A DNA stretch of 64,000 bases from Liolophura sinensis (taxonomy: Eukaryota; Mollusca; Polyplacophora; Chitonida; Chitonidae). Position 1 is the first letter of the stretch. Each line of letters opens with the position of its first letter. Below the pieces are notes generated by a model. The model made no database searches and was not told where the DNA came from. It saw only the letters and a list, made by a program, of their open reading frames with translations. The translations under genes were made by a program, and so were the position numbers. The stretch spans positions 310,001-374,000 of the forward strand of contig NC_088296.1 of NCBI RefSeq assembly GCF_032854445.1, given 5' to 3'. This document shows, in pieces, positions 12,000-64,000 of the stretch.

Positions 12000-12940
12000 T
12001 GGAGAAAAAATAAAGTGCACCCGAGAAGATACAACTCATGTAATATGTGACCCCAGAGTCAGGAAGAAACGAAACTGTCCACAACTGAGGTTACACAAAT
12101 TAGGTAGCCTAACATTTGGATCAGGTGTAAGAGAGGAAACGCACCACAGCAGAGAAGATGGGTACTTGTACCATGTAATGTGTGAATCAGGGGTCATCCA
12201 GAGAAGAAACCCATCACACGGGAAAACCATCTCTCCTGAGAAGATATACATCAGGTAATGTGTGAACCCGGTATTACAGAGACAGGAAAACCAGCCGTCC
12301 TAAAAAAGTCACACATCAGGTAATTTCTGGGCTCTATATTACAGAGAGAGGGAAACCATCTCCCCTGAGAAAATACACATTAGGTAATTTGTGGACCCGG
12401 TATTACAGAGAGAGGGGGAAACCAGCTCTCCAGAGAAAATACACATCAGTTAATGTGTGGGCCCGGTGATAGAAAGAGAGGAAAACTAGCTCCCCTGAGA
12501 AGACAGACATGAGTTAATGTGTGAACCCCGTATTAGAGAGGAAAACCGGCTGTCCAGAGAAAATACACACCAGTTATTGTGTTGACCAGGTATTACAGAG
12601 AGAGGAAAACCAGCTCTCCAGAGAAGATACACATCAGTTAATGTGTGGACCCGGTGAAAGAAAGAGAGGAAAACCAGCTCCCTCGAGAAAATACACATCA
12701 GTTAATGTGTCAACCCGGTATTAGAGAGGACAACCAGCCCTCCTAAGAAAATACACATCATGTAATGTGTTGACCAGGCATTATAGAGAGAGGAAAACCA
12801 GCTCTCCAGAGAAGATACACATCAGTTCATGCGTGGGCCGGGTGACAAAAAGAGATGACAACCAGCTCCCCTAAGAAGATACGCATCAGTTAATGTCAGG
12901 GCTCGATATTAGAAAGAGAGGAAACCCAGCAATACTGATA
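12000..12940. repeat. Tandem repeat, unit about 60-63 bp (copy A)
   Basis: About fifteen imperfect units. Each contains elements such as 'gaggaaaaccagctctccag', 'agaagatacacatcagttaa' and 'tgtgtgaacccggtatta'. Unit edges vary and some units are diverged. The open frames here are by-products of the repeat. Unit B has fewer units (about 41290-42165), so the array has changed length since the duplication. Confidence 0.85.
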
Positions 12941-18206: not shown

Positions 18207-21200
18207 CTGCAAAAACACAACAGAAGCAGCATAAACAACAGCAAACCATAAACACACGTTGTAAGACTGAGGTGTAAATACCTGTACACATACCGTGGTT
18301 TTACTTGCTCAACACAAACTCTTGAAATAAAATGACATATATTTTTGACATAAATGTAATTTATATACAGATCTCTGTCATTTTCAGCCAGTTTAAAAGA
18401 GTTGAGCTTCAACAAGAACTAAATCCATGACTAAATGACGGGTACGACATAGACATAGACTAAGTACTGGGTTAAAATACAGGCTTTTAGCGATCTAATT
18501 TGTTTAAAACTTATCACTTACAACAAGAATAATACCTTCCTCCATCCAGCCATTGGTTTTAGTTGTCACTTATGACACATTTGAACACTCAGTTCACTAC
18601 CAAGCTGCAGTAGGCCTGTTGTCATTCGTGGAGTACCGAAGCCGTCTGCGTAATAAGGGAGGTAACTCGCCACACATAACTTACCAAGTGACTTTCATTA
18701 TCACAATACCCCCAAAGACTATTTAATCCACCAGTAGTAGTCAGCTAAATTTTTTTCAATTTGCCTTTTTTTTTAAAGATACCTAAATATTTAAATATTA
18801 ACAACAAAGTTATATTAGGGGGGAAGAGCATGTAAACCTCATACTCTTATACATGGAATCTATATCCTTTAACATTAATAATGAAACAGGTATGAGGGCA
18901 TTTTTTCTCTTTTCTTTCCCCTTTGAAGTAAGTGTTTGACTACATTTGAATCTAGGAAAAAATGGCGAATTTTTACTTGAATACATGTTTCAGTAAAAAT
19001 TCGGGGGCCTCCGTGGTTCAGGTGGTTAGCGCGTTAGCGCAGAGTAATGAAACAGAAGGCTCTTACCATGCAATGCGGTCGCTGTGAGTTCAAGTCCAGC
19101 TCATGCTGGCCTCCTCTTCGGCCGTTCGTAAAAAGGTCTTAAAGTAACCTGCAGATGGGCGTGGGTTGCCACCGGGCTATGCCCAGTTTCCTCCCACCAT
19201 AATGCTTGCCGCCGTCGTCTAAGTGAAATATTCTTGAGTACGGCGTAAAGCACAAAAAATTGGGTGCAATATGTCATCTGTCCTGCTCTAAAAGTGTACA
19301 CCTGCTCTTGTACACATGGGGTAAACATCACCAAGGCACCACGGAATACACAAACACCAGTCCTGATCTAACATTACACCCGCTGATTTGTAAAAACAAG
19401 GTAGACACCGATGCCTTCACAACCATCTGTTCTGATCTAATTTTGCAGCTGCTGATATATAATTCTACTATGTACCTTCCTTTTTATGTGACTTCTGGGC
19501 CAACTGTACATTAATCTGAATGTCCTGTGCACATCCTACTGTGTGCCTCACATTAGTCTGTGTCGTCTGTGCACACCCTACTGTAAATCTCACGTTAGCC
19601 TGTGTCTTCTGTGCACACCCTACTGTATACCTCACATTAGCCTGTGTCTTCTGGGCACATCCCACTGTATAACTCACATTAGCCTTTTGTCTTCTGTGCA
19701 CACAGTACTGCATAACTCACATTAGCCTGTGTTTTCTGTGCACACCCTACTGTATAACTCACCTTAGCCTGTGTCTTCTGTGCACACCTTCCTGTAAACC
19801 TTACATTAGCCTATGTCTTCTGTGCACATCCTACTGTATAACTCGCATTAGCCTATGTCTTCTGTGCACACCCTACTGTATACCTCACAATTGTCTGTGT
19901 CTTCTGTGCACCCCCCTACAGTATATCTCACATTAGCCTGTGTCTTCTGTACACACCCTTCTGTATAATTCACATTAGCCTGTGTCTTCTGTGCACATCC
20001 TACTATGTAGTTAGCCTGTGTCTTTCGTGCACACCCTACTCTATATCTCACAATAACCCGTGTCTTCTGTGCACACCTTACTGTATAACTCACCTTAGCC
20101 TGTGTCTTCTGTGCACACCTTCCTGTATACCTCACATTAACCTGTGTCTTCTGTGCACATCCTATTGTTCAACTTGCATTAGCCTATGTCTTCTGTGCAC
20201 AGCCTACTGTATAACTCACATTAGTCTGTGTCTTCAGTGCACACCCTACAGTATATCTCACATTAGCCTGTGTCTTCTGTGCACACCCTACTGTATAACT
20301 CACATTAGCCTGTGTCTTCTGTGCACATCCTACTCTGTACCTCACATTAGCCTGTGTCTTTCGTGCACACCCTACTGTATATCTCACAATAGCCTGTGTC
20401 TTCTGTGCACACCCTACTGTATACCTTACATTAGCCTGTGTCTTCTGTGCACATCCTACTGCATAACTCACATTAGCATGTGTCTTCTGTGCACACCCTA
20501 CTGTATATCTCATATTAGCCTGTGTCTTCTGTGCACATCCTACTGTATATCTCACATTAGCCTGTGTCTTATGTGCACACCTTACTGTATATCTCACATT
20601 AGCATGTGTCTTCTGTGCACATCCTACAGTATATCTCACATTAGCCTGTGTCTTCTGTGCACATCCTACTGTATAACTCACATTAGCCTGTGTCTTCTGT
20701 GCACACCCTACTGTATATTTCATATTAGCCTGTGTCTTCTGTGCACATCCTACTGTATAACTCACATTAGCCTGTGTCTTATGTGCACACCTTACTGTAT
20801 ATCTCACATTAGCCTGTGTCTTCTGTGCACATCCTACTGTACTCTGGGCAAACCATACTGTATATCTGACAATAATTTGTATATTCCGGGCACACACTAC
20901 TGTATACCTCACATTAGTTAGCATCTTTTTACTCTACCCTATCTCTTGCCTATCATTAATGTGTATGGTTTATACTATCTGTACTTTTTGTAAACTCTTC
21001 TCACTTTCGTGTCTCTTGGAATACTGTTCATTTTCTTGGCACGCCCACGACATATCGGTTTGATTTCTTAACACAGTCTATCGTGTGTTTTGCAAGTAGA
21101 CAGCCGTTCGCCCTCTCCATTTTTGTTTGTGTCTTCGATGCACACACTAATGTAAACGCTTCAGTTCTTTATGTCGTCTAATCACACCCTACTGTATGCC

Positions 21201-24200
21201 TTTTATACATAAGAACTTACTTGTAACACGTAGGGGAGATATTTGTCCACCGACTGCTGCTTCTAAGTCCTGACATTCTTGCACTGTTTCTTTCACAGTC
21301 ACCTGTCTAGGAACAACTTGGTCATATTGGACAGAAGCTAGAAGCTTCCGTCTGCTGACCTCATGTTTCTCCAGATCTGCTCTTATCCCATTCAGCTGGT
21401 CATCAGTCCTGCGAGAAGAGGAGAGAAAATAAAGAGACACAGTTGTGTAGTGATCTTGTGTCCGCGCAGTTATAAGAATGCCATGATGTACTATTCCTAG
21501 TAGTTTAGATCTAATTTGTCTGGAGAAAAGTAAGATTGAACATTAGATATATCTCACACTTGAGTCATGTTTTGGACAACTACAGCTTACAGAATCACAT
21601 CTGCTGACAATAGTCACGTGCGCATGTATAACAAACATGGGGAGGTATAACACATTTATACATACGTTTTGGTGAAGTCCGTGGAACCCTGTCAACAAAC
21701 AGAATTGAGCCTACATATAAAATCAAGTAAAGAAGAAACAGATACCTCTCCAGAGACACACAGTACACAAGCACCCTTGGCTTTTATATCCAACATTTAG
21801 ACCATTCCCTGATCTATTACATAGCCCACATCAGCTCTCAATTCCGCTTAATAAATTCCATTGTGCTTCATACAATACAATTTCCCCTTATTTGCAAATT
21901 TATTTACATACAAATCTTGTTTTATATAAAAAAAAAAGCATACAATGTGTTCTTTTTGACATTACATGTTGCTACTTTATTGCTTTTATCGGACCGATGG
22001 GTACCACTGAGCATAATAAAGCTGTTGAACTCAGGATCTAAAACTTTAGCAGATCTGGCAGCAAGAGGTGGATTTGAATACCTGATCACAGTTCCTAAGG
22101 GTGGTTTGGGTCTTAGGTAACGTCTGTAGTAGAGGCAGATGAACTAATGTTAGAGACGGTGACTTATATGCTTGACTTACCTGCAAAAACTCCACGTCCA
22201 TTGATGCTAATAAATCATTGGAAGCCTGTACCATCCTCTCCATTTCCTGGGCCTGTAGCTGTAAATGTTTGAGTATAGCACTACACTCCACACTCCACTG
22301 TGAATAGCGGGTTCTTATGCCATCTAAGGAGTGCTGCCTCCAGGCTTGTAAAGCTTCCAGGGCTGCACAATAAGCCTTTTCTACCTCCTCAGTGTGAAGT
22401 TCCTGGTTTTCCTGCCAAACAGAAAATTCGTTTATTACCTCATCCACACCTTTAGAACTGCGTGTTCAAGAAGTTATATATGTATGTGTAAAAGGGTGAA
22501 CTATACGCGCCACATAACAATGTGTCTCCGGGGTGGAGGGGATTTCCCTTTAATCCAGTGATGTACATGCAAGTGTCCACTCAAAACCCCAAAGGTACGT
22601 CGGTCAACCTCTAAAAGGGTCGTGCCATCAAAACTGATGCTCCGAGCATGGTGAAGCCTTAGATGCTTCCAACCTCAGACACCTGGGGCTGGTTCAAACA
22701 CGAACGTTGTCGCCCCATCAGATCAAATGGTGTACGTGTATATATTATAGATTATATTATGACAGCGTATGATGGGCGATGATATATCAAATGGAGTTGT
22801 CTGAGGTGGGCATATCGCGTGTGTGTCACTGACAAGAAAGTCATAATAATAGTACGATAGTCTGATTAGATCAACGAGAAACAGGTAAAATAGACCCGTC
22901 CTTCACACAAATAAATAACCGCATCAGTCCGTGTATTCCCCTGTTTAAGTTCTGATAAAAAGTTGTCAGCATTCGGGTTTAACTCTTTAATTGTAATCTA
23001 CATATATAATATGTGACAGAATAAGCTTTAATAGCAATATTCTACATAGTCAAAATGAACCACAACAACATGAGATTGAACAGGTGTCATGGAAAATACC
23101 AACCTGTATCTTACTGTGCAGCCTCAGAACTCCTGACAGTGATTCCTTAGTTTCGCCTAAGACTTTCTCCAGTTCATTAGTCCTGCTCAAAACACCTGGC
23201 TGTAATGCAAAAAAAAACGCTACATTAAAAAATCCGCCTTTCAAAAGACTCACTACAGTACAGGAGAAAATGTCCCATTCTTCACTACACATCATAAATT
23301 TTAGGTCAGTAAACAGTTCCAAATCATGCCATATTTATTTTAATTATCGACTTATATACTAGCATGGTACACGATTTAGATAGTGATTTAAGTTATTCGC
23401 TCAGAACATTCCTTGCTTCTTTCTAGTATCAATGAAAACTGTTTATCACTTTTCTTTGCATGATTCCAAAGTAATTTTGAACTTACACAATTTCTTAGTT
23501 TTTCGTGGCTTGTGTTAATAGTCGTTTTGGGAAATGACCACACGATTATTGACTCCATTTCGGTTGATGGCTGATATACGAATATCTTTTTCACATTACC
23601 TTTTCATTCTCAGCTGCTGATGGTATATCCCGCATAGCGTGTCCCTGATGCTCAACCACACACCCCATACAGATCACCATCCGACACGGTTCACAGTACA
23701 AGCCGAATGGCTGACCATGTCTCGCACACGACGGCTGCTGGGTTGATTGGTGGTCCCTGTTGACTTGACCTTGTGAGGTTTCCTGAGAGAGGTACTCCAG
23801 GGGTGAAATCAGTTGGTGACGTTTCAGAGGACCCCTCATTGGGTGACAAATAGCAAGACATTCCTCACAGTAGAACACACCACAGTTGGTACAAAACTTG
23901 ACAGCTTTGACGTGATTACCTTCCTCACACAGAGAACAATATGGGGCGTCATCCTCAACAGTTACACCAGATGAGAACCTCTGCACAACTTCTGCCAGCT
24001 GAAAGTTGGGAGGCAGACCAGCTACACCTTTTCTCCCCAGACTGGTGGGTGACCGACACACAGGGCATGCTATCAGCTGATGAACGTCCTCATTCCCAGT
24101 GCTGCCGGAGGTCTCATCTGTCTGTACAGGTTTAGACTTCTCAGCATATAAAGCAATGCATTCCCTACAGAAACTGTGCTGACAGGTTAGCATTACTGGT

Positions 24201-24268
24201 TTCCGGAATCTTTCCATGCATATCGAACAGGTGAGAACATCATCCCGCTCTTGCATACTTTCGGCCAT
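17635..24268 (-). CDS. TRIM E3 ligase-like gene, copy A (six coding exons, 592 aa)
   Basis: A probable RING-type ubiquitin ligase of the tripartite-motif family, of a kind usually cytoplasmic and often involved in innate immunity. Coding exons on the minus strand are 24268-23600, 23199-23104, 22411-22181, 21688-21666, 21408-21221 and 18206-17635. They total 1779 bp, with matching phases and canonical GT-AG sites. Exons of 96, 231 and 23 bp in this order are the classic TRIM coiled-coil layout, which strongly supports the model. RING cysteines and histidine are C14, C17, C29, H31, C34, C37, C68 and C71. B-box 1 spans about residues 111-151 and B-box 2 about 182-215. The coiled coil follows from about 224 to 340, and SPRY covers 403-592 with GRYYWEI and LGVYLDCDEH motifs. 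The start is the first ATG of the RING exon. The last intron (about 3.0 kb) holds a minisatellite and a SINE. No inactivating change is seen. Confidence 0.92.
19011..19252 (+). mobile_element. Full-length tRNA-derived SINE in TRIM intron (copy A)
   Basis: Box A 'tggttcaggtgg' is at 19014-19025 and box B 'gagttcaagtcc' at 19086-19097. The body includes 'cctgcagatgggcgtgggtt', and the tail 'attcttgagtacggcgtaaa' is followed by an A-run. It lies antisense to the TRIM gene. The same insertion is in copy B at 48491-48731. Confidence 0.88.
19513..20925. repeat. 42-bp minisatellite in TRIM last intron (copy A)
   Basis: About 33 units of a 42-bp repeat with core 'cacattagcctgtgtcttct' and 'gtgcacaccctactgtata'. 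Because 42 is a multiple of three, long frames stay open on both strands (14-residue periodicity such as VGCAQKTQANVRYT). These should not be taken as genes. Lone diverged units continue to about 21197. Confidence 0.93.
21221..21408 (-). CDS. TRIM copy A coding exon 5
   Basis: 188 bp, acceptor 'cttctcgcag', donor 'caa|gtaagt'. Encodes the coiled-coil end and linker (TDDQLNGIRADLEKHEVSRR ... AAVGGQISPLRVT). The one leftover base pairs with two bases from the SPRY exon to give Lys. Confidence 0.9.
21666..21688 (-). CDS. TRIM copy A coding exon 4 (23-bp micro-exon)
   Basis: 23 bases between acceptor 'tgtttgttgacag' and donor 'gtatgt', coding GSTDFTK plus two bases. It shifts the phase exactly as needed to join exon 3 to exon 5, which is a strong internal check of the gene model. 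Confidence 0.88.
22181..22411 (-). CDS. TRIM copy A coding exon 3 (231 bp, coiled coil)
   Basis: 77 codons, phase 0, acceptor 'ctgtttggcag' and donor 'cag|gtaagt'. Heptad-like leucine and aromatic pattern around ALEALQAWRQHSLDGIRTRY and AILKHLQLQAQEMERM. The exact 231-bp length is typical of TRIM genes. An upstream in-frame extension exists but would break the phase with exon 2. Confidence 0.9.
23104..23199 (-). CDS. TRIM copy A coding exon 2 (96 bp)
   Basis: 32 codons, phase 0 at both ends, acceptor 'cattacag' and donor 'cag|gttggt'. Contains LSRTNELEKVLGETKESLSG, the start of the coiled coil. The length of exactly 96 bp is the family norm. Confidence 0.9.
23600..24268 (-). CDS. TRIM copy A coding exon 1: RING and two B-boxes
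   Basis: 223 codons ending in phase 0 at a donor 'aaaag|gtaatg'. It encodes the C3HC4 RING (CSIC ... CQHSFCREC ... CPVC), B-box 1 (CSLC ... CTNC ... CEEC ... H) and B-box 2 (CARH ... CEPC ... CMGC ... HQGH). The insert between RING cysteines 6 and 7 is about 30 residues, longer than in many TRIMs. An acceptor-like 'tttttaag' lies just upstream at 24303-24304, so a separate 5'-UTR exon is likely. Confidence 0.92.
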
Positions 24269-24301
24269 TATTGGTTGATTTTATTTTTTGAGTTTTTTTT
24301 T

Positions 24302-25062: not shown

Positions 25063-25310
25063 TTTATTTATTTATTTATTTATTTGATCGATGTTTTACG
25101 CCGTGCTCAAGAATATTTCACTCATACGACAGCGAGCAGCAATAAAGTGAGAGGAAACCCACCACCATCCGCAGGTTGCTTCCAGACCTTCCCACGTACG
25201 GTGGGGAGGGGGGAAGCCGGCATGAGCTGGACTTGAACTCACAGCACACAGGAGGAAAATGGGTCATTGGGCTGCGCTAGCGCGCAAACCAACTGAGCCA
25301 CGGAGTTCCC
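25063..25310 (-). mobile_element. tRNA-derived SINE, minus strand
   Basis: The tail 'gatgttttacgccgtgctca' is at the left, after a TTTA-repeat. The head 'gagccacggagttccctc' is at the right, with box B 'ggacttgaactcac' (complement). Counterparts in B are 54784-55022 and 59333-59568. Confidence 0.85.
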
Positions 25311-25447: not shown

Positions 25448-25690
25448 TATTTACTTATTTGGTTAGCGTTTTACGCCACACTTAGGAATATTTCACTTAT
25501 ACGACGGCCGCCAGCAATATAGCGGGAAAAAACCGGGGCCCGGTGGAAGCCCGGGACCATCCGCATGATGCTTGCAGACTTTCCCACATGCGGCTGGAGA
25601 GGAAGCTAGCATGGACTGGAATTGGGCGGTAGGCTTCTTCGCCATTGCTCCGTGCTCGTGTGCTAATAATCTCCGCCACTGAAGCCCCTT
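25448..25690 (-). mobile_element. tRNA-derived SINE variant, minus strand
   Basis: A more diverged subfamily with the tail 'tggttagcgttttacgccac' and head end 'gccactgaagcccc'. Counterparts in B are 55998-56229 and 60543-60774. The middle copy carries a local hairpin-type rewrite. Confidence 0.8.
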
Positions 25691-38205: not shown

Positions 38206-38331
38206 TTATTTATTTATTTAATTGGTGTTTTACGCCATACTCTAGAATATTTCACTTATACGACGGCGAGCAGCAATATAGTGGGTGAAAACCGGCAAAA
38301 CTCAGGGGAAACCCCTAACCGTCCGCAGGTT
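38206..38331 (-). mobile_element. Nested SINE in LINE, unit B
   Basis: The same insertion as 8875-8998. Flanking duplications are 'ttaagtatttttatac' and 'ttaagtatatttatat', each now with one mutation. Confidence 0.8.
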
Positions 38332-41289: not shown

Positions 41290-42165
41290 GAGAAGAAACA
41301 AAGTGCACCCGAGAAGATACAACTCATGTAATATGTGACCCCAGGGTCAGGAAGAAACGAAACTGTCCACAACTGAGGTTACACAAATCAGGTAGCCTAA
41401 CATTTGGATCAGGTGTAAGAGAGGAAACGCACCACAGCAGAGAAGATGGGTACTTGTACCATGTAATGTGTGAATCAGGTGTCATCCAGAAAGGAAACCC
41501 ATCACACGTTGAAAGATACACGTTAGCGCCCAGTATTACATGTAGAAAGAGATAAAAACCAGCTCTCCTGAGAAGTTAAACATCAGGTAAATATGAGGTT
41601 CCGGAATTAAAGAGAGAGGAAAACCATCTCTCCTGAGAAAATACACATCAGGTAATGTGTGAACCCGGTATTAGGGAGATGGGAAATCCATCTCTGCTGA
41701 GAAGATACACATCAGGTAATGTGTGAACCCGGTATTAGAGAGACAGGAAAACCAGCCGTCCTGAAAAGTCACACATCAGGTAATTTCACCCAGCTCCCTT
41801 GAGAAGATAGACATGAGTTAATGTGTGAACCCGGTATTAGAGAGGAAAACCGGTTCTCCAGAGAAAATACACACCAGTTAATGTGTTGACCAGGTATTAC
41901 AGAGAGAGGAAAACCAGCTCTCCAGAGAAGATACAAATCAGTTAATGTGTGGGCCCGGTGATAGAAAGAGAGGAAAACCAGCTCCCTCGAGTAGATACAC
42001 ATCAGTTAATGTGTGAACCCGGTATTAGAAAGAAAAACCAGCCCTCCTAAGAAGATACACATCAGTTAATGTGTGCGCCCGATGATAAAAAGAGAGGACA
42101 ACAAGCTCCCCTAAAAAGATACGCATCAGTTAATGTCAGGGCTCGGTATTAGAAAGAGAGGAAGC
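41290..42165. repeat. Tandem repeat, unit about 60-63 bp (copy B)
   Basis: The same family as 12000-12940, with different gains and losses of units. For example, the B array holds a 'cacgttagcgcccagtatta' variant near 41520 that A lacks. Confidence 0.85.
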
Positions 42166-49002: not shown

Positions 49003-50615
49003 CTGAATCTCGTGTGCACATCCTACTGTATACCTCACATTAGCCTGTGTCGTCTGTGCCCACCCTACTGTGTACCTCACATTAGCCTGTGTCTTCTGTG
49101 CCCACCCTACTGTGTACCTCACATTAGTCTGTGTCGTCTGTGCACATCCTACCCTATACCTCACATTAGTCTGTGTCGTCTGTGCCCACCCTACTGTGTA
49201 CCTCACATTAGTCTGTGTCGTCTGTGCACATCCTACTGTATATCTCACATTAGCCTGTGTCTTCTGTGCACATCCTACTGTATATCTCACATTAGCCTGT
49301 GTCTTCTGTGCACATCCTACTGTATACCTCACATTAGTCTGTGTCGTCTGTGCCCACCCTACTGTATGCCTCACATTAGTCTGTGTCGTCTGTGCCACCC
49401 TACTGTATACCTCACATTAGCCTGTGTCGTCTGTGCCCACCCTACTGTATACCTCACATTAGTCTGTGTCGTCTGTGCCACCCTACTGTATACCTCACAT
49501 TAGTCTGTGTCGTCTGTGCCCACCCTACTGTATAGATTACCTCACATTAGCCTGTGTCTTCTGTGCACACCCTACGGTGTACCTCACATTAGTCTGTGTC
49601 GTCTGTGCCCACCCTACTGTATACCTCACATTAGTCTGTGTCGTCTGTGCCACCCTACTGTATACCTCACATTAGTCTGTGTCGTCTGTGCCCACCCTAC
49701 TGTATTGCCTACCTCACATTAGCCTGTGTCTTCTGTGCACACCCTACTGTATACCTCACATTAGTCTGTGTCGTCTGTGCCACCCTACTGTATACCTCAC
49801 ATTAGTCTGTGTCATCTGTGCACACCCTACTGTATACCTCACCTTAGTCTGTGTCTCCTGTGCACATCCTACTGTATAACTCACATTAGCCTTTGTCTTC
49901 TGTGCACACTCTACCGTATACCTCGCATTAGCCTGTGTCTTCTGTGCACACCCTACTGTATACCTCGTATTAGCCTGTGTCTTCTGGGCACACCCTACGG
50001 TATACCTCACCTTAGCCTGTGTCTTCTGTGGACACCTTAGTGTATACCTCACATTAGCCTGTGTCGTCTTTGCACATACTACTGTATAACTCACATTAGC
50101 CTGTGTCTTCTGTGCACACCCTACTGTATAACTCACATTAGCCTGTGTCTTATGTGCATACACTACTGTATAACTCACATTAGCCTGTGTCTTCTGTGCA
50201 CATCCTACTGTATACCTCACATTAGCCTGTGTCTTCTGTGCACACCCTACTGTATAACTCACCTTAACCTGTGTCTTCTGTGCCCACCCTACTGTATATC
50301 TCACATTAGCCTGTGTCTTCTGTGCACATCCTACTGTATAACTCACATTAGCCTGTGTCTAATATGGACACCTTACTGTATACCTCACATTAGCCTGTGT
50401 CTTCTGTGCATATCCTAGTGTACACCTCGCATTACCCTGTGTCTTCTGTGCACACCCTACTGTATATCTCACATTAGCCTGTGTCTTCTGTGCACATGCT
50501 TCTGTGTATCTCAAATTAGCCTCTGTCATCTGGGCAAACCATACTGTATATCTGAGAATAATTTGTATATTCCGGGCACACACTACTGTATACCTCACAT
50601 TAGTTAGCATCCTTT
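49003..50615. repeat. 42-bp minisatellite in TRIM last intron (copy B)
   Basis: The same repeat as copy A but longer, about 38 units. The left half is dominated by a 'gtgtcgtctgtgcccaccct' variant, with 41-bp units ('ctgtgccaccctactg') and insertions ('tatagattacctc', 'tattgcctacctc'). These form a higher-order pattern of several units. The right half resembles the A-type units. Confidence 0.93.
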
Positions 50616-52892: not shown

Positions 52893-53293
52893 CTGTAATG
52901 GGAAAAAAAAACGCTACATTAAAAAATCCGCCTTTCAAAAGACTCACTACTGTACAGGACAAAATGTCCCATTCTTCACTACACATCATAAATTTTAGGT
53001 CAGTAAACAGTTCCAAATCATGCCATATTTATTTTGATTATCGACTTATATACTAGCATGGTACACGATTTAGATAGTGATTTAAGTTATGCGACCAGAA
53101 CATTCCTTGTTTCTTTCTAACATCATTGAAAACTGTTTATCACTTTTCTTTGCATGATTCCAAAGTAATTTTGAACTTACACAATTTCTTAGTTTTTCGT
53201 GGTTTGTGTTAATAGTCGTTTTGGGAAATGACCACACGAGTATTGACTCCATTTCGGTTGATGGCTGATATACGAATATCTTTTTCACATTAC

Positions 53294-53962
53294 CTTGTCA
53301 TTCTCAGCTGCTGATGGTATATCCCGCATAGCGTGTCCCTGATGCTCAACCACACACCCCACACAGATCACCATTCGACACGGTTCACAGTACAAGTCGA
53401 ATGACCGACTGTGTCTGGGGCATGACGGCTGCTGGGTTGATTGGTGGTCCCTACTGACTTGGCCCTGTGAGGTTTCCTGAGAGAGGTGCTCCAGGGGCGA
53501 AATCAGTTGGTGACGTTTCAGAGGACCCCTCACTGAGTGACAAATAACAAGACATTCCTCACAGTAGAACACACCACAGTTGTTACAAAACTTGACAGCT
53601 TTGACGTGATTACCTTCCTCACACAGAGAACAATATGGGATGTCATCCTCAACCTATACACCAGATGAGAACCTCTCCACAATTTCTGCTAGATGAAAGT
53701 TAGGAGGTAGACCAGCCACACCTTCTCTCCCCAGACTGGTCGGTGCCCGACACACAGGGCACGCTATCAGCTGATGAACGTCCTCATACCCAGTGCTGTC
53801 GGAGCTCTCGTCTGTCTGTACATGTTTGAACTTGTCAGCGTACGAATCAATGCATTCCCTACAAAAACTGTGCTGACAGGGTAGCATTACTGGTTTCCGG
53901 AATGTTTCCATGCATATCGAACATGTGAGAACATCATCCCGCTCTTGCATACTTTCGGCCAT
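53294..53962 (-). pseudogene. TRIM copy B exon 1 with in-frame TAG
   Basis: RING cysteines and histidine are all kept (CSIC, CQHSFCREC, CPVC). TAG at 53654-53656 ends the frame after residue 102. The two B-boxes follow in the same frame (CSLC ... CNNC; CPRH ... CEPC ... CVGC). Many residues differ from copy A in the RING insert. Confidence 0.85.
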
Positions 53963-54783
53963 TATTAGTTTTTTTTTTCTGCAACAAAAACGGCAAATCG
54001 CTCAGACGGGCACCTATAAGAATGTTCCTATTTACAAAATCGTTAACGTTCAAGACAGCACACAACCTCCATCTGTTCCCGTGTTCCCACAACACACTGA
54101 GTACAGTACTTTTTATCGCTATTCTCCAATTCTCGTTTAAGAAGCATTGAAGTGTCTATACATGCACGAGGAGAGTATGCAAACCTCGCTTTCCTGAGAA
54201 AGAATCCATTCTGTTCAGTTAGAAATTTGGCCATTCTTCCTTTTATTGCGCTTTTTGGCAAAAATCTGGTCAGGCTAATTTGGGCAGAGGTGTTTTATAG
54301 TGATATTCGATAGATATATAGCTCCAATCCATAATTAGCAAGTCTGTGTGCAAAAACGAGATTATCGCTATTTAAATGTATATTGTCTAGCCAAGCCTGT
54401 TGAATACAGTGTCCATGATGGTAACTTGACCCTATATACTGTATGATAATTGGGCCAAACCTCTGGAATATCTCTATCTGCAGAAGTTTATACAATATAT
54501 AACAGATATAATAAACACGGCATTACTAATAGTGACACAAGCATTTCTTACTTATATTAAAACAGTTACAAACCAAGGTCAAATTTTGTATCCCAGCTCC
54601 CAGTGTTTTTTTAGAAAGCACAGAAGTAAAGACTACAATACACCTGCTTATCAATCAAAACGATTAAACCGTAAAATGTTGACTTCGTTCCAATGTGTGA
54701 CGTACATGACCGATTAGACACAGTGCTATAACAGGGACAGCCTGTCATAGCACCGTATCAACTCAAAGCCTGGATTGGAGATA

Positions 54784-55022
54784 TGTTTATTTATTTTATT
54801 GGTGTTTTACGCCGTAATCAAGAATATTTCACTTATACGACGGCGAGCAGCAATATAGTGAGAGGAAACCCACCACCATCCGCAGGTTGCATCCAGACCT
54901 TCCCACATTCGGCCGGGGAGAAGCCGGCATGAGCTGGACTTGAACTCACAGCAACTGCATTGGTGAGAGGATACTGGGTCATTGAGCTGCGCTAGCGCGC
55001 AAACCGACTGAGCCACGGAGTT
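54784..55022 (-). mobile_element. SINE, duplication copy 1
   Basis: Counterpart of 25063-25310. Tail at the left 'ttggtgttttacgccgtaat', head 'gagccacggagttc' at the right. Confidence 0.82.
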
Positions 55023-55149
55023 CAGTGCATACCTTAGGTTTGAGCCCCCCTCCAAGTCGGGAGACCTTAGACCTGAGTCGCGTCATACCAAAGACTTCGA
55101 AAATGGTATTTCTTACTCTTCAGCTTGGGATATGAGAACATGTACATCC

Positions 55150-55850
55150 TAACCATGATTTTTTTTCTGTTACAATTTTTATATTTGGAGCAGAAAGGCG
55201 AACGTTGTAAGTAAACACACAGCGTTCCATACATGTCGGTTGCTCTGGTTATCTACATGTATGTAGGCCCAACCCCAGACAACACGTCAGTGGCAAGCAA
55301 CGACCTTCAGCAAAACCCTACATAATGCTTCTCAAGGTCAAAGCTTCAGAAAAGTACATTAATAACGTACTATCGCCCTGTATATATAGTGAGAAGATCG
55401 ACATAACTGGACAGTATGAACTTGCCCCTAATTCAATTAGTCGTTTTTCTTGAGAAGAAAATATTCCAACTGTTTATAGACAGTGTCAGAGTTTCACACA
55501 CAGATCGAGAGTAGAGTCTATACAGAGACACACACCATTAATCGTACGTCGACTTCGTGAGGATAAGCAGACCATTTACATTCTGTATGAGAGCCGTTCA
55601 CACGATTAAGTAAAGACAACTCCCTCACCTGACAGAAATATCTAGATATAACAATAGGCCTACCCCATCTTACAAGACTTACCTGTCGACACTATTCCCA
55701 CCGTGTTTCACTACTTGATAAAACTGCGCAGATTGAAACAGAAACTACTTGGTTCCGAGAAATAGGTCATCCGAGCAGGAGAGGTAAATCCCTCAGTATG
55801 CTTGTACACATTTATACTACATGACATCTCCACAATTGTAGCACAGTTCC
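55150..55850 (-). promoter_or_regulatory. First-exon module I, duplication copy 1
   Basis: Minus-strand TATAAA at 55811-55816 and donor 'gtcgacag|gtaagt' with exon end 55683. On the plus strand 'ccctgtatatatagtgagaagatcgaca' type sequence lies further downstream of the exon. Absent from unit A, where a deletion joins 'agttc' to 'agttc'. Confidence 0.38.
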
Positions 55851-55997
55851 CTCAACAACTCAAGAATGTGCACATAATCTTTAAAATTATGGCCGATGCA
55901 ATGGCCGTTATTTACATAGTACGGCTTTAACTGCAACTGATCGGATGGCTCACAGATGAACGGTCATAACAGTTTACTTTAACAATATTATTTACCT

Positions 55998-56229
55998 TTT
56001 TGGTTAGCGTTTTACGCCACACTTAAGAATATTTCACTTATACGACCGCCGCCAGCATTATAGTGGGAGGAAACCGGGGCCCGAAGCGCCCGGGTTCCAT
56101 CCCACTATATGCTGGCAGACTTTCCCACATACGGCTGGAGAGGAAGTTAGCATGGACTGGACTTGGGCGGTAGGCTTCTTCGCCATTGCTCCGTGCTCGT
56201 GTGCTAATAATCTCGGCCACTGAAGCCCC
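55998..56229 (-). mobile_element. SINE variant with hairpin rewrite
   Basis: Counterpart of 25448-25690. Positions 56083-56113 differ completely from the other copies and form a near-perfect inverted repeat with 56051-56079. Confidence 0.8.
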
Positions 56230-56339
56230 TATGAGCAATTGATATAGGCTATCATACAACAGACGGACTGGCGTACAGGGATTAGATGAAACGATTATAC
56301 ACGTATAACATGACTTTTTTTTACTGTCACATTTTTTTT

Positions 56340-57010
56340 TTTTTAATATTTACACGTTGTAAGTAAATGAACAGCGATCCATAGAGGCATGATATCCGCG
56401 CTATGTGTGCCATAGGCAGCACGTCACCGCCAGTAATCGAACTTCAGCACAACTCCAATATGCTATTCAAGGTTAAAGTTTTACGACCTCAAATTAATAA
56501 CGTAATATCGCCTTGTTAGAAGATCGACACAGTCAAACAGTATAAAACTGAACAAAAATCAGTCGTTTTCCTTGATACGCAAATATCGACGGTTCTAGGC
56601 TCACACGCAGGCTGGCATGGCTGATGTTAAAATCTATAAAAGAAAGCGTCCCATTTGTATATCTACGCTGTGTCGATTTGAGGACGAGCAGGCCAATTAA
56701 ACTGTGTCTGACTGAATGAGAATAGGCAACAGCTACAATAGTTGCCCACTTGAGCAGACCAATTAAACTGTGTCTGACAGCGGGTGACACGATCAAGTAA
56801 AGACAACTCCTTAACCTGACAGATCGTTTCCATCCAAACTACATATAATCGTCTCACAGAGCTTACCTGTCCACACAAATCCCACCTGGCTCCACAACTT
56901 GGTGAAACTGAACAGATTGGAATAGAAAATACTTAGTTCTGAGAAATGCACCTGATCTGTACAGGGGAGGTAAATCCCTCAGTATGTTTGCGCACATTTA
57001 CACTCTGTGA
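56340..57010 (-). promoter_or_regulatory. First-exon module II, duplication copy 1
   Basis: Donor 'gtggacag|gtaagc' with exon end 56867. The TATA position reads TGTAAA (56997-57002). It also contains an internal direct repeat of 'caattaaactgtgtctgac' (56692-56712 and 56761-56780), about 68 bp apart, not present in unit A. Confidence 0.33.
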
Positions 57011-58058
57011 CATCTCAAGAATGGTTTCCACAACTCGCCATTAACTTAAGGCCCAACCGTGAATGTCACATTTCAACGAACAATCAGTTTCCCACAAAAT
57101 TACTTCAGAAAATGGGTTCAAATCATTTATATTTGCTATCCCGTTTAGGTTCAAACAGAATACATTGGAAGTATAGTTGAGAAATGTCAGATGGATTTTC
57201 TCAAACCAGTATAATGAGGACAGGCAATAGCTACAATAGTTGCCCACTTGATTCAAGCGGCATTACCCTCGTGGGGTCTCCAGGCTGAAAAGAATACGAC
57301 CTCAGTCTTCTTGGCAAGCTTGTCGTAAAAAGCGCCTAACGTAGAGCTCTACCGTGAGGCCTCGGTGAAATATACACTCACATCTCCTATATTTGTGTGA
57401 GGGACCATAGAGGAATAAGCCTACCTGTTTGCCCTGGGTTTGCAACCCTTACTTGAAGAGAACGGTCTTGCGAGATTTTCAAGCCCAACACTTCACTTCG
57501 GCTCTTCTTTAGAGACTGAAGATCGGGTTGGCCCAGTTGGCTAATCGGTTGGAGCAGATATGCTCCGAACTAAAATCACAAGGGTGTGTAGATGTCAAGC
57601 GATACGCAACATATAAAAAACGATGATACTTATCTCCATCTGATAACCCCTCTTTTCCTCAGTCGATCTCTACACCGCCGAAGTAGATCTGTACAAACCT
57701 AATATGCTTTGCCTGTATTAAGACAATAAAACGTTAAAATTGCGACGAAGCGTATATGATCTCCTCTATGGACTGTCTTCTCTTTATAAAAGAGAAACAG
57801 GTCATTACCTCAAAAGAAACAATTCAAAAAGCACGTCACCTTATCTCTTCCGCGAACAGTGTCCTGAAAACTTCATTCGCCAGAGTGGAGAGTATCAACA
57901 TGTGTTGACACTCAAATATCACTGACTTGCCAATGATTGGTTACGGTAAACCTAAAACAATATCTGTGAAAGAATTAACTAACTTGTCAATAAATCTACG
58001 TCTGCATCTGACTGTATACTCAGTCAAGGCATCGCTGGACTGAAGTTTTTATAATATC

Positions 58059-58314
58059 TCGGGGCCGAGGTGGTTAGTGTGTCAGCGCGACGCCTTGGCC
58101 CAGGGGGATCTCACCAACGCGTCGGCTGTGAGTCCAAATCCAGCCTAGGCTGTCTTCCTTTCTGCTCATACGTGAGAGGGTCTGACTGCAACCTGCGGAT
58201 GGTCGTGGTTTCCCCCGGGATCTGCGCAGTTTCCTCCCACCATAATGCTGGCGGTCGTCATATAAGTGAAATATTCTTGTGTCCGGAGTAAAACACCAAC
58301 AAAATAAATAAATA
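58059..58314 (+). mobile_element. SINE, plus strand, duplication copy 1
   Basis: Counterpart of 27418-27670; head 'ggggccgaggtggttagtg', tail 'attcttgtgtccggagtaaa'. Confidence 0.8.
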
Positions 58315-58439
58315 AATTCATTAAACATCTCCGGCGCAATTATCAAAAGCTTTACCTAGAGCAATAACACTGTTTTGCTGCAGGACGTCCTAAATCTTTA
58401 GTTGTCAGCACTGAAAATGCTGACCAATTCTCCACTTTA

Positions 58440-58561
58440 AGATCAAAGTCTAAAACTTCATTTTCCCTGTTCTTTATACCCAGGGTGGGCTTTATTATGT
58501 AGATTTGTGGTCGTAACAACGTATAGAACGTGTGGTCAGTAATATTTATTATAAGTTTCTA
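58440..58561 (+). mobile_element. LINE RT fragment cut by tandem-duplication junction
   Basis: The first part of the same LINE as 27850 and 63000, broken at 58561 where the second duplication copy begins. Confidence 0.65.
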
Positions 58562-59332
58562 ATAAGAATGTTCCTATTTACAAAATCGTTAACGTTCAAG
58601 ACAGCACACAACCTCCATCTGTTCCCGTGTTCCCACAACACACTGAGTACAGTACTTTTTATCGCTATTCTCCAATTCTCGTTTAAGAAGCATTGACGTG
58701 TCTATACATGCACGAGGAGAGTATGCAAACCTCGCTTTCCTGAGAAAGAATCCATTCTGTTCAGTTAGAAATTTGGCCATTCTTCCTTTTATTGCGCTTT
58801 TTGGCAAAAATCTGGTCAGGCTAATTTGGGCAGAGGTGTTTTATAGTGATATTCGATAGATATATAGCTCCAATCCATAATTAGCAAGTCTGTGTGCAAA
58901 AACGAGATTATCGCTATTTAAATGTATATTGTCTAGCCAAGCCTGTTGAATACAGTGTCCATGATGGTAACTTGACCCTATATACTGTATGATAATTGGG
59001 CCAAACCTCTGGAATATCTCTATCTGCAGAAGTTTATACAATATATAACAGATATGATAAACACGGCATTACTAATAGTGACACAAGCATTTCTTACTTA
59101 TATTAAAACAGTTACAAACCAAGGTCAAATTTTGTATCCCAGCTCCCAGTGTTTTTTTAGAAAGCACAGAAGTAAAGACTACAATACACCTGCTTATCAA
59201 TCAAAACGATTAAACCGTAAAATGTTGACTTCGTTCCAATGTGTGACGTACATGACCGATTAGACACAGTGCTATAACAGGGACAGCCTGTCATAGCACC
59301 GTATCAACTCAAAGCCTGGATTGGAGATATGT

Positions 59333-59568
59333 TTATTTATTTGATTGGTGTTTTACGCCGTGCTCAAGAATATTTCACTTATACGACGGCGAGCAGCAAT
59401 ATAGTGAGAGGAAACCCACCACCATCCGCAGGTTGCATCCAGACCTTCCCACATTCGGCCGGGGAGAAGCCGGCATGAGCTGGACTTGAACTCACAGCAA
59501 CTGCATTGGTGAGCGGATACTGGGTCATTGAGCTGCGCTAGCGCGCAAACCGACTGAGCCACGGAGTT
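59333..59568 (-). mobile_element. SINE, duplication copy 2
   Basis: Copy of 54784-55022 with only a few substitutions, mainly in the tail. Confidence 0.82.
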
Positions 59569-59699
59569 CAGTGCATGCCTTAGGTTTGAGCCCCCCTCCA
59601 ATTCGGGAGACCTTAGACCTGAGTCGCGTCATACCAAAGACTTCGAAAATGGTATTTCTTACTCTTCAGCTTGGGATATGAGAACATGTACATCCTAAC

Positions 59700-60400
59700 C
59701 ATGATTTTTTTACTGTTACAATTTTTATATTTGGAGCAGAAAGGCGAACGTTGTAAGTAAACACACAGCGTTCCATACATGTCGGTTGCTCTGGTTATCT
59801 ACATGTATGTAGGCCCAACCCCAGACAACACGTCAGTGGCAAGCAACGACCTTCAGCAAAACCCTACATAATGCTTCTCAAGGTCAAAGCTTCAGAAAAG
59901 TACATTAATAACGTACTATCGCCCTGTATATATAGTGAGAAGATCGACATAACTGGACAGTATGAACTTGCCCCTAATTCAATTAGTCGTTTTTCTTGAG
60001 AAGAAAATATTCCAACTGTTTATAGACAGTGTCAGAGTTTCACACACAGATCGAGAGTAGAGTCTATACAGAGACACACACATTAATCGTACGTCGACTT
60101 CGTGAGGATAAGCAGACCATTTACATTCTGTATGAGAGCCGTTCACACGATTAAGTAAAGACAACTCCCTCACCTGACAGAAATATCTAGATATAACAAT
60201 AGGCCTACCCCATCTTACAAGACTTACCTGTCGACACTATTCCCACCGTGTTTCACTACTTGATAAAACTGCGCAGATTGAAACAGAAACTACTTGGTTC
60301 CGAGAAATAGGTCATCCGAGCAGGAGAGGTAAATCCCTCAGTATGCTTGTACACATTTATACTACATGACATCTCCACAATTGTAGCACAGTTCCCTCAA
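59700..60400 (-). promoter_or_regulatory. First-exon module I, duplication copy 2
   Basis: TATAAA on the minus strand at 60356-60361, donor exon end 60228. Nearly identical to 55150-55850. Confidence 0.36.
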
Positions 60401-60542
60401 CAACTCAAGAATGTGCACATAATCTTTAAAATTATGGCCGATGCAATGGCCGTTATTTACATAGTACGGCTTTAACTGCAACTGATCGGATAGCTCACAG
60501 ATGAACGGTCATAACAGTTTACTTTAACAATATTATTTACTT

Positions 60543-60774
60543 ATTTGGTTAGCGTTTTACGCCACACTTAAGAATATTTCACTTATACGACCGCCGCCAG
60601 CATTATAGTGGGAGGAAACCGGGGCCCGGTGGAAGCCCGGGACCATCCGCATGATGCTTGCAGACTTTCCCACATACGGCTGGAGAGGAAGTTAGCATGG
60701 ACTGGACTTGGGCGGTAGGCTTCTTCGCCATTGCTCCGTGCTCGTGTGCTAATAATCTCGGCTACTGAAGCCCC
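60543..60774 (-). mobile_element. SINE variant, duplication copy 2
   Basis: Copy of 55998-56229 but with the ancestral body 'cccggtggaagcccgggac', as in unit A at 25538-25556. Confidence 0.8.
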
Positions 60775-60889
60775 TATGAGCAATTGATATAGGCTATCAT
60801 ACAACAGACGGACTGGCGTACAGGGATTAGATGAACGATTATACACGTATAACATGACTTTTTTTTACTGTCACATTTTTTTTTTTTTA

Positions 60890-61560
60890 ATATTTATACG
60901 TTGTAAGTAAATGAACAGCGATCCATAGAGGCATGATATCCGCGCTATGTGTGCCATAGGCAGCACGTCACCGCCAGTAATCGACCTTCAGCACAACTCC
61001 AATATGCTATTCAAGGTTAAAATTTTACGAGCTCAAATTAATAACGTAATATCGCCTTGTTAGAAGATCGACACAGTCAAACAGTATAAAACTGAACAAA
61101 AATCAGTCGTTTTCCTTGATACGCAAATATCGACGGTTCTAGGCTCACACGCAGGCTGGCATGGCTGATGTTAAAATCTATAAAAGAAAGCGTCCCATTT
61201 GTATATCTACGCTGTGTCGATTTGAGGACGAGCAGGCCAATTAAACTGTGTCTGACTGAATGAGAATAGGCAACAGCTACAATAGTTGCCCACTTGAGCA
61301 GACCAATTAAACTGTGTCTGACAGCGGGTGACACGATCAAGTAAAGACAACTCCTTAACCTGACAGATCGTTTCCATCCAAACTACATATAATCGTCTCA
61401 CAGAGCTTACCTGTCCACACAAATCCCACCTGGCTCCACAACTTGGTGAAACTGAACAGATTGGAATAGAAAATACTTAGTTCTGAGAAATGCACCTGAT
61501 CTGTACAGGGGAGGTAAACCCCTCAGTATGTTTGCGCACATTTACACTCTGTGACATCTC
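60890..61560 (-). promoter_or_regulatory. First-exon module II, duplication copy 2
   Basis: Donor exon end 61411, degenerate TATA (TGTAAA at 61541-61546). Also has the internal repeat of 'caattaaactgtgtctgac'. Confidence 0.33.
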
Positions 61561-62601
61561 AAGAATGGTTTCCACAACTCGCCATTAACTTAAGGCCCAA
61601 CCGTGAATGTCACATTTCAACGAACAATCAGTTTCCCACAAAATTACTTCAGAAAATGGGTTCAAATCATTTATATTTGCTATCCCGTTTAGGTTCAAAC
61701 AGAATACATTGGAAGTATAGTTGAGAAATGTCAGATGGATTTTCTCAAACCAGTATAATGAGGATAGGCAATAGCTACAATAGTTGCCCACTTGATTCAA
61801 GCGGCATTACCCTCGTGGGGTCTCCAGGCTGAAAAGAATACGACCTCAGTCTTCTTGGCAAGCTTGTCGTAAAAAGCGCCTAACGTAGAGCTCTACCGTG
61901 AGGCCTCGGTGAAATATACACTCACATCTCCTATATTTGTGTGAGGGACCATAGAGGAATAAGCCTACCTGCTTGCCCTGGGTTGCGACCCTTACTTGAA
62001 GAGAACGGTCTTGCGAGATTTTCAAGCCCAACACTTCACATCGGCTCTTCTTTAGAGACTGAAGATCGGGTTGGCCCAGTTTGGCTAATCGGTTGGAGCA
62101 GATATGCTCCGAACTAAAATCACAAGGGTGTGTAGATGTCAAGCGATACGCAACATATAAAAAACGATGATACTTATCTCCATCTGATAACCCCTCTTTT
62201 CCTCAGTCGATCTCTACACCGCCGAAGTAGATCTGTACAAACCTAATATGCTTTGCCTGTATTAAGACAATAAAACGTTAAAATTGCGACGAAGCGTATA
62301 TGATCTCCTCTATGGACTGTCTTCTCTTTATAAAAGAGAAACAGGTCATTACCTCAAAAGAAACAATTCAAAAAGCACGTCACCTTATCTCTTCCGCGAA
62401 CAGTGTCCTGAAAACTTCATTCGCCAGAGTGGAGAGTATCAACATGTGTTGACACTCAAATATCACTGACTTGCCAATGATTGGTTACGGTAAACCTAAA
62501 ACAATATCTGTGAAAGAATTAACTAACTTGTCAATAAATCTACGTCTGCATCTGACTGTATACTCAGTCAAGGCATCGCTGGACTGAAGTTTTTATAATA
62601 T

Positions 62602-62858
62602 CTCGGGGCCGAGGTGGTTAGTGTGTCAGCGCGACGCCTTGGCCCAGGGGGATCTCACCAACGCGTCGGCTGTGAGTCCAAATCCAGCCTAGGCTGTCTT
62701 CCTTTCTGCTCATACGTGAGAGGGTCTGACTGCAACCTGCGGATGGTCGTGGTTTCCCCCGGGATCTGCGCAGTTTCCTCCCACCATAATGCTGGCGGTC
62801 GTCATATAAGTGAAATATTCTTGTGTCCGGAGTAAAACACCAACAAAATAAATAAATA
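62602..62858 (+). mobile_element. SINE, plus strand, duplication copy 2
   Basis: Copy of 58059-58314, nearly identical. Confidence 0.8.
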
Positions 62859-62999
62859 AATTCATTAAACATCTCCGGCGCAATTATCAAAAGCTTTACC
62901 TAGAGCAATAACACTGTTTTGCTGCAGGACGTCCTAAATCTTTAGTTGTCAGCACTGAAAATGCTGACCAATTCTCCACTTTAAGATCAAAGTCTAAAA

Positions 63000-64000
63000 C
63001 TTCATTTTCCCTGTTCTTTATACCCAGGGTGGGCTTTATTATGTAGATTTGTGGTCGTAACAACGTATAGAACGTGTGGTCAGTAATATTTATTATAAGT
63101 TTCTAACCCATTTGTCATCTGAGCCACTGGAGACTCTGTTGGGCTTGTTTAATCATGATATTTGGATTAGTATTAAGTTTTCCACCCTCATGGACGGGGA
63201 GGGTGTATTATTCCGGTTCTAAAACCGGGTAAGGGTCATAATGAACCGCCTAATTAACGTCCAATAGCTCTTATCAGCGTGGTTAAGAGTATGGAACGAA
63301 TAATAAATGATAGACTTCTTTGGTATTTAGAAACCAACACTTTACTGTCTAATATTAAATGTGGTTTTCCTCAAAGTCGATCTAAAGTTTGTCGAATTGA
63401 AACTTTTATTCGTAATGATAAAAAAAATAATGAACAAAACGTGTCACTATTTTTCGACCTTGAAAACGTCACCGAACTACGACGCCGCATGGAAATAAGG
63501 TGTTTTAAAAGGCCTCTTTGATATTGGACTTATCGCTTATAATTATTTATCAGAGCTTTTATCTTATCGTCAGCTATCGTCAGTTTAGGTTTTTTCAAAG
63601 GCAAAAATTACCGTATTCCAGAGTAGCATACTGTCACCAACACTTTTTTATCTTCAAACTTAATAGCTTGTGAAAAACTTAAACATGTGGTACAGAAGGT
63701 TCTTTTTATGTACAGTTGATGATTTCCATATATGCTACCGTTCTAAAATATGAATAACATCGGCAAGACTGCTGCAGTTTTCTCTCAATGACCAAGAAAT
63801 GGACATGATTTTAGATTTTCTACATCTAAGACCATCGATATGCATTTTTATTGTAAACAGATCTTCATTTCGACTTCAAAATTTTATGGTAAACCTGTGA
63901 AAATTGACATCTGAAAACAGATTTTCAGGAGTCATAGATGATAGCAAATTCCTCATTTCCCTCCATGTTAAAATGCTTAAAGCTAAATGAAAAAATCTAT
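63000..64000 (+). mobile_element. LINE RT fragment at window end
   Basis: Counterpart of 27850-28800. Reads MERIINDRLLWYLETNTLLS and NIKCGFPQSRSKVC at about 63291-63400, then decays. It has an extra block 'ggttttttcaaaggcaaaaa' near 63587-63610 that unit A lacks, so A lost a piece. It continues beyond the window. Confidence 0.72.

Follow-up and report, generated by a model that had tools for sequence, protein, structure and literature searches.

A rewritten arm in one tandem copy of a SINE-like repeat of Liolophura sinensis, probably templated by the neighbouring left arm

Introduction

How does one copy of a dispersed repeat come to carry a near-perfect hairpin when its closest duplicates do not? 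This question is raised by a SINE-like repeat in a 64,000-nucleotide stretch of the Liolophura sinensis genome (the window), where three related copies, c1 (25.5 kb), c2 (56.1 kb) and c3 (60.6 kb), can be compared with one another. The initial annotation had read the middle copy as the product of a quasi-palindrome or intra-strand template-switch mutation. Short-range template switches have been described in great ape genomes, with the suggestion that a subset of them represents the conversion of quasi-palindromes to palindromes first proposed for bacteria, many such conversions lying below the significance threshold of that study (PMC7954356, in excerpt). Homogenisation of inverted-repeat arms is described in yeast (PMC8604942, in excerpt), and RNA stems are described as being created and repaired through template switching (PMC8794818, in excerpt). 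Because both template switching and quasi-palindrome correction are documented, the event analysed here is of a known kind, and it is a new and imperfect instance of that kind. Titles and abstract openings returned by a literature search contained no report of a switch in this SINE.

Results

The self-BLAST of the window showed that 2530-28795 corresponds to 32842-64000, a duplication of about 30 kb with 89-95% identity in most of its long blocks, and that the second half of this duplication contains a 4.55-kb tandem duplication of 99.14% identity. Aligned duplicate blocks run through c1, c2 and c3, so the three copies are homologous sites and the insertion of the repeat is older than the duplications. 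The three copies had been treated as one tandem set, which is true of c2 and c3, the members of the 4.55-kb tandem pair, but not of c1, which lies about 30.5 kb away in the larger and more diverged duplicate. The search for the repeat gave 17 matches in the window including the query, that is, 16 other copies, several of them truncated in the alignment. These dispersed homologues are grounds for calling the repeat SINE-like. We take the family to be a Nin-type SINE, and the orientation of c2 is likewise presumed. As with the Nin-type SINE (PMC11121367, in excerpt), the element is dispersed and looks like a mollusc SINE, the assignment to that family being our assumption. Rfam at gathering thresholds gave 0 matches in the window, and ARAGORN gave 0 tRNA genes in it. 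The duplicate units and the repeat copy under study are as follows.

54016-58561 (match end given as 58562), no strand: tandem duplicate unit A, carrier of the rewritten repeat (self-BLAST, differing columns, junctions)
58562-63106, no strand: tandem duplicate unit B, carrier of the ancestral state (self-BLAST, differing columns)
55975-56215, presumed minus strand: SINE-like copy c2, given as the range of the matched stretch, not as true ends (match search, alignment)

Units A and B differ in 40 alignment columns in total, and 14 of these sit within 33 bp (56082-56114) inside a single SINE-like repeat, whereas 20,000 uniform random placements never put more than 6 differing columns in such a window. 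The 26 columns outside the rewrite, 22 substitutions and 4 single-base gaps, are scattered. In an ungapped comparison with c3 the change covers 31 columns (56084-56114), of which 19 differ, and the rewrite brought no net change of length, the offset between c2 and c3 being 4545 on either side. On the left, 84 flanking bases (55999-56082 = 60544-60627) that include the left arm do not differ between c2 and c3, nor do the 103 bases of the right flank. In the stretch that corresponds to 56083-56116, c1 and c3 share all 34 bases (25542-25575 = 60628-60661), so the clustered differences are measured against an ancestral state fixed by two agreeing copies, and c2 is the derived copy. Taken with the identical flanks, this agreement places the change on the c2 branch, in the right arm and the loop. 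The earlier description of about 31 replaced bases in the middle copy, with the ancestral and the derived state both legible in one window, was thus borne out. The polarity needs no reconstruction because ancestor, descendant and outgroup share that window. The reverse polarity, in which the hairpin was ancestral and was lost in both c1 and c3, is ruled out by the same identity over 34 bases and is further contradicted by the closer resemblance of c1 and c3 than of c2 to the other repeat copies. The features of the rewrite are listed below.

56083-56114, plus strand: rewritten stretch, with the loop change at 56083-56088 and the right arm from 56089 (duplicate alignment, template alignment)
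60628-60661, plus strand: ancestral state in c3, identical to 25542-25575
25542-25575, plus strand: ancestral state in the outgroup copy c1, identical to the c3 stretch
56051-56078, plus strand: left arm, unchanged, probable template (60596-60623 in c3; c2/c3 identity, template-alignment range)
56089-56116, plus strand: CCCGGGTTCCATCCCACTATATGCTGGC, the segment best explained by inverted copying of the left arm (26 matches, 1 mismatch, 2 one-base gaps)
56051-56116, plus strand: resulting hairpin of 28 pairs, the new right arm pairing with the unchanged left arm

The inverted pairing first noticed in the sequence is real: GCCAGCATTATAGTGGGA at 56051-56068 is mirrored by TCCCACTATATGCTGGC at 56100-56116, the reverse complement of the latter lacking one T. 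With DNA parameters the c2 hairpin folded at -29.4 kcal/mol (z -7.47, 0 of 200 shuffles as good), as against -12.4 kcal/mol for the c3 homologue (z -0.03, 89 of 200) and -12.7 kcal/mol for that of c1 (z 0.19, 118 of 200). With RNA parameters the values were -48.8 (z -6.82) for c2, -33.0 (z -2.43; 3 of 200 shuffles as good) for c3 and -26.0 (z -0.14) for c1. The ancestor, as represented by c3, is therefore a weak quasi-palindrome with RNA parameters and no better than its shuffles with DNA parameters, and the weak RNA hairpin may make quasi-palindrome correction a better fit than the creation of a hairpin from nothing. When the 19 changed letters were shuffled, the observed inverted-match score was attained in 0 of 20,000 trials; under a stricter null, in which the places and lengths of the edits were kept and the letters were random, 13 of 20,000 trials attained the score, and 6 of 3000 came up to the RNA folding energy observed. 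These trials bear on a stepwise origin, by independent point mutations or by selection for pairing, which could have started from the weak quasi-palindrome that the RNA parameters indicate in the ancestor. Such a build-up is very hard to credit, since random changes so seldom matched the pairing and since 14 of the 40 differences are packed into 33 bp while the other 26 are spread over 4.5 kb.

The source of the new arm was sought with a three-stage alignment that passes from c3 to a template and back to c3, the gain being measured over the linear alignment. The local reverse complement gained 16, compared with 13, 10 and 10 for the direct, reversed and complemented controls; another scoring, with no switch cost, gave 13 against 10, 8 and 10 in the same order. 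The margin over the best control is a modest 3 units, and the inverted segment is 28-33 bases long where control segments are 4-8. An alignment of the four-point type, the check suggested at the outset, thus favours the local inverted template over both linear alignment and controls, modestly. The point order is 3-2-1-4, as the template (60596-60623) lies to the left of the jump-off at 60631 and the return at 60662 lies to its right. At word level, no exact derived-specific word found elsewhere in the window is longer than TCCCACTATA, which occurs in the adjacent inverted left arm and in its c3 counterpart; CCCACTATAT, lying inverted at 38276 within another copy, has the same length of 10 bases. 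The new arm also copies the A of TATAGTGGGA, a position that reads G in 9, A in 6 and a gap in 1 of the 16 other copies, and among the aligned repeat copies the whole of CATTATAGTGGGA is present in c2 and c3 only.

How often such a signal arises by chance was gauged from 13 pairs of duplicated blocks (30,587 columns, with some sequence entering two or three pairs), alignments that excluded the minisatellites and all remaining parts of the window. A cluster was defined as a 30-column window with at least 9 differences, gap columns past the third in a run being uncounted. Ten clusters were found at eight distinct sites, two of which (the focal one and one near 25238) were counted twice, and each cluster was tested in both directions (20 cluster-direction tests) against ten controls: the reversed template, the complemented template and eight inverted stretches drawn at random from the window. 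Only one of the 20 tests beat all ten controls, namely c2 from c3, with a gain of 9 against a best control of 6; as far as the printed margins show, 6 of the others tied with the best control and 13 fell below it. With c1 taken as the ancestor the focal site had no inverted advantage (6 vs 6), and c1 and c3 do not have the same left arm. Templating by the left arm is supported by these comparisons. An assembly or sequencing artefact is another explanation to which the locus lends itself, being palindromic, hairpin-prone and within 99% identical duplicates, with its state read from the assembly. An artefact is nevertheless quite improbable: the other 26 differing columns are scattered, and a random error would not be expected to produce bases that so nearly repeat the inverted sequence next to them.

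The new arm might also have been donated through gene conversion, as a short tract from another SINE copy that already bore the better hairpin. Related copies are many, with 16 others matched in the window, and residual mismatches would be natural if the donor were older. None of five derived words, however, occurs elsewhere in the 64-kb window on either strand, so that the search for other SINEs with the same body, named at the outset as a possible refutation, turned up none there. Moreover, among 187 flank columns c1 and c3 disagree at 10, while the 84 and 103 flanking bases of c2 and c3 are identical, and a tract from a c1-like donor would therefore have been hardly longer than the change itself. 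We regard conversion as unlikely. A separate search of viral_contigs with the exact 19-base derived pattern gave one match, in L001, which shares 20 bases with the focal site. This match was judged to be chance because L001 and the window have little else in common, only two further matches, 19 and 27 bases long; no match in viral_contigs was obtained with a 22-base pattern taken from the repeat.

Copying from the left arm does not account for the whole product. The faultless copy of the template that one simple event would leave was not found: within its 28 bases CCCGGGTTCCATCCCACTATATGCTGGC has one mismatch to the template, an additional A and a missing A, the CCAT within it is the ancestral right-arm sequence, and the change of the loop from GGTGGAA to GAAGC has no inverted template. 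The cheapest parse combined two direct-strand jumps, which supply the new loop, with an inverted segment; there the inverted piece shrinks to about 14 bases, and the T to G change at 56114 is left over. Parse costs with and without the inverted template were 6 vs 8 at a switch cost of 1, 8 vs 10 at 1.5, 10 vs 11 at 2 and 12 vs 12 at 3, the advantage thus falling to zero once a switch is priced at three point changes. Inversion of the spacer was ruled out, as the new loop is assembled from direct-strand pieces in the cheapest parse. A clean switch followed by ordinary mutations was also rejected, since, at a background of 26 other differing columns per about 4.5 kb, the Poisson probability of at least 3 changes in 34 bases is 0.0011, or 0.00015 for changes on the c2 branch alone. 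Since three later changes in so short a stretch are improbable, one messy episode is favoured over a clean switch plus mutation, and the loop change together with the three departures calls for extra jumps, errors or patchy repair of the hairpin. Of the template-switch signature proposed initially, the templating by the left arm and the polarity have held, but the simple single switch has not, as it leaves the errors and the change of the loop over.

Discussion

Our results make it likely that c2 acquired its new right arm by synthesis on the left arm of the same copy after the 4.55-kb duplication, in one unclean episode. The tandem duplication would have come first, and the rewrite would have followed in one SINE copy, where the right arm of an imperfect inverted repeat may have been remade with the left arm (56051-56078) as template, either by a polymerase or during repair of a hairpin that had extruded. 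The return to the normal strand would lie near 56110-56117. The loop would have been remade by small direct-strand jumps, and a few bases would have been kept ancestral or miscopied. A copy of this unclean kind would fit several short switches, error-prone synthesis or patchy mismatch repair of a hairpin within one episode; the enzyme, its action in a single episode and the switch order are what we infer from the form of the product.

The event resembles the four-point template-switch model (PMC7954356 and PMC8794818, in excerpt) in that a cluster of changes derives from a nearby reverse-complement template and makes a stable hairpin, and its point order, 3-2-1-4, is named in PMC7954356, as excerpted, as one of the two majority orders. 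It differs from that model, as excerpted from the same two papers, in that the copy contains errors and direct-strand loop jumps, and in that the event is seen between paralogous duplicates, not between species. With quasi-palindrome correction (PMC8604942, in excerpt) it shares an imperfect inverted repeat brought closer to perfection by one arm templating the other; unlike there, the arms retain bulges and a mismatch, and the spacer is altered, not simply inverted. The locus is thus a clear example of an inverted-template rewrite within a dispersed repeat. The imperfection of the copy is relevant to the question of whether one clean switch or several occur per event.

A more speculative and rather doubtful extension is that the quasi-palindromic core of the SINE is a recurrent hotspot of template switching, where error-prone switches would ratchet copies towards better hairpins, some of them pre-miRNA-like stems. 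If the core proves to be a hotspot, the dispersed copies would be a natural assay of template switching. Apart from the rewrite, the right arm reads GCATGAT in c1 (25563-25569) and c3 (60649-60655), and GCAGGTT at this place in 10 of the 14 remaining copies, with one GCAGACA and three gapped or diverged. Both bases that change GCAGGTT to GCATGAT match the inverted left arm, and GCATGAT may possibly represent an earlier step of partial correction.

As for the surroundings, the window contains 12 open frames of at least 130 aa, five of which were scanned against Pfam. SPRY was matched by two of the five, RING together with B-box by one, and the TRIM coiled coil by one, with a score below the curated cut-off; the fifth matched nothing. 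The 4.55-kb unit starts about 50 bases from the start of the second RING/B-box exon match (53965-53288, minus strand), which places the repeat upstream of a TRIM-like gene, as an old insertion for which no function is claimed. This second RING/B-box exon (53288-53965, minus strand) is interrupted by a single in-frame stop, whereas the frame of the first copy (23594-24277) is open, and the SPRY exons of the two TRIM-like copies share 78% protein identity; the second copy is possibly a pseudogene or an allele. Both halves of the large duplication also carry two minisatellites, one with a 42-base unit at 19525-20841 (31.5 copies) and 49013-50603 (37.7 copies), and one with a 64-base unit (periods of 124 and 188 too) at 12221-12930 and 41555-42163.
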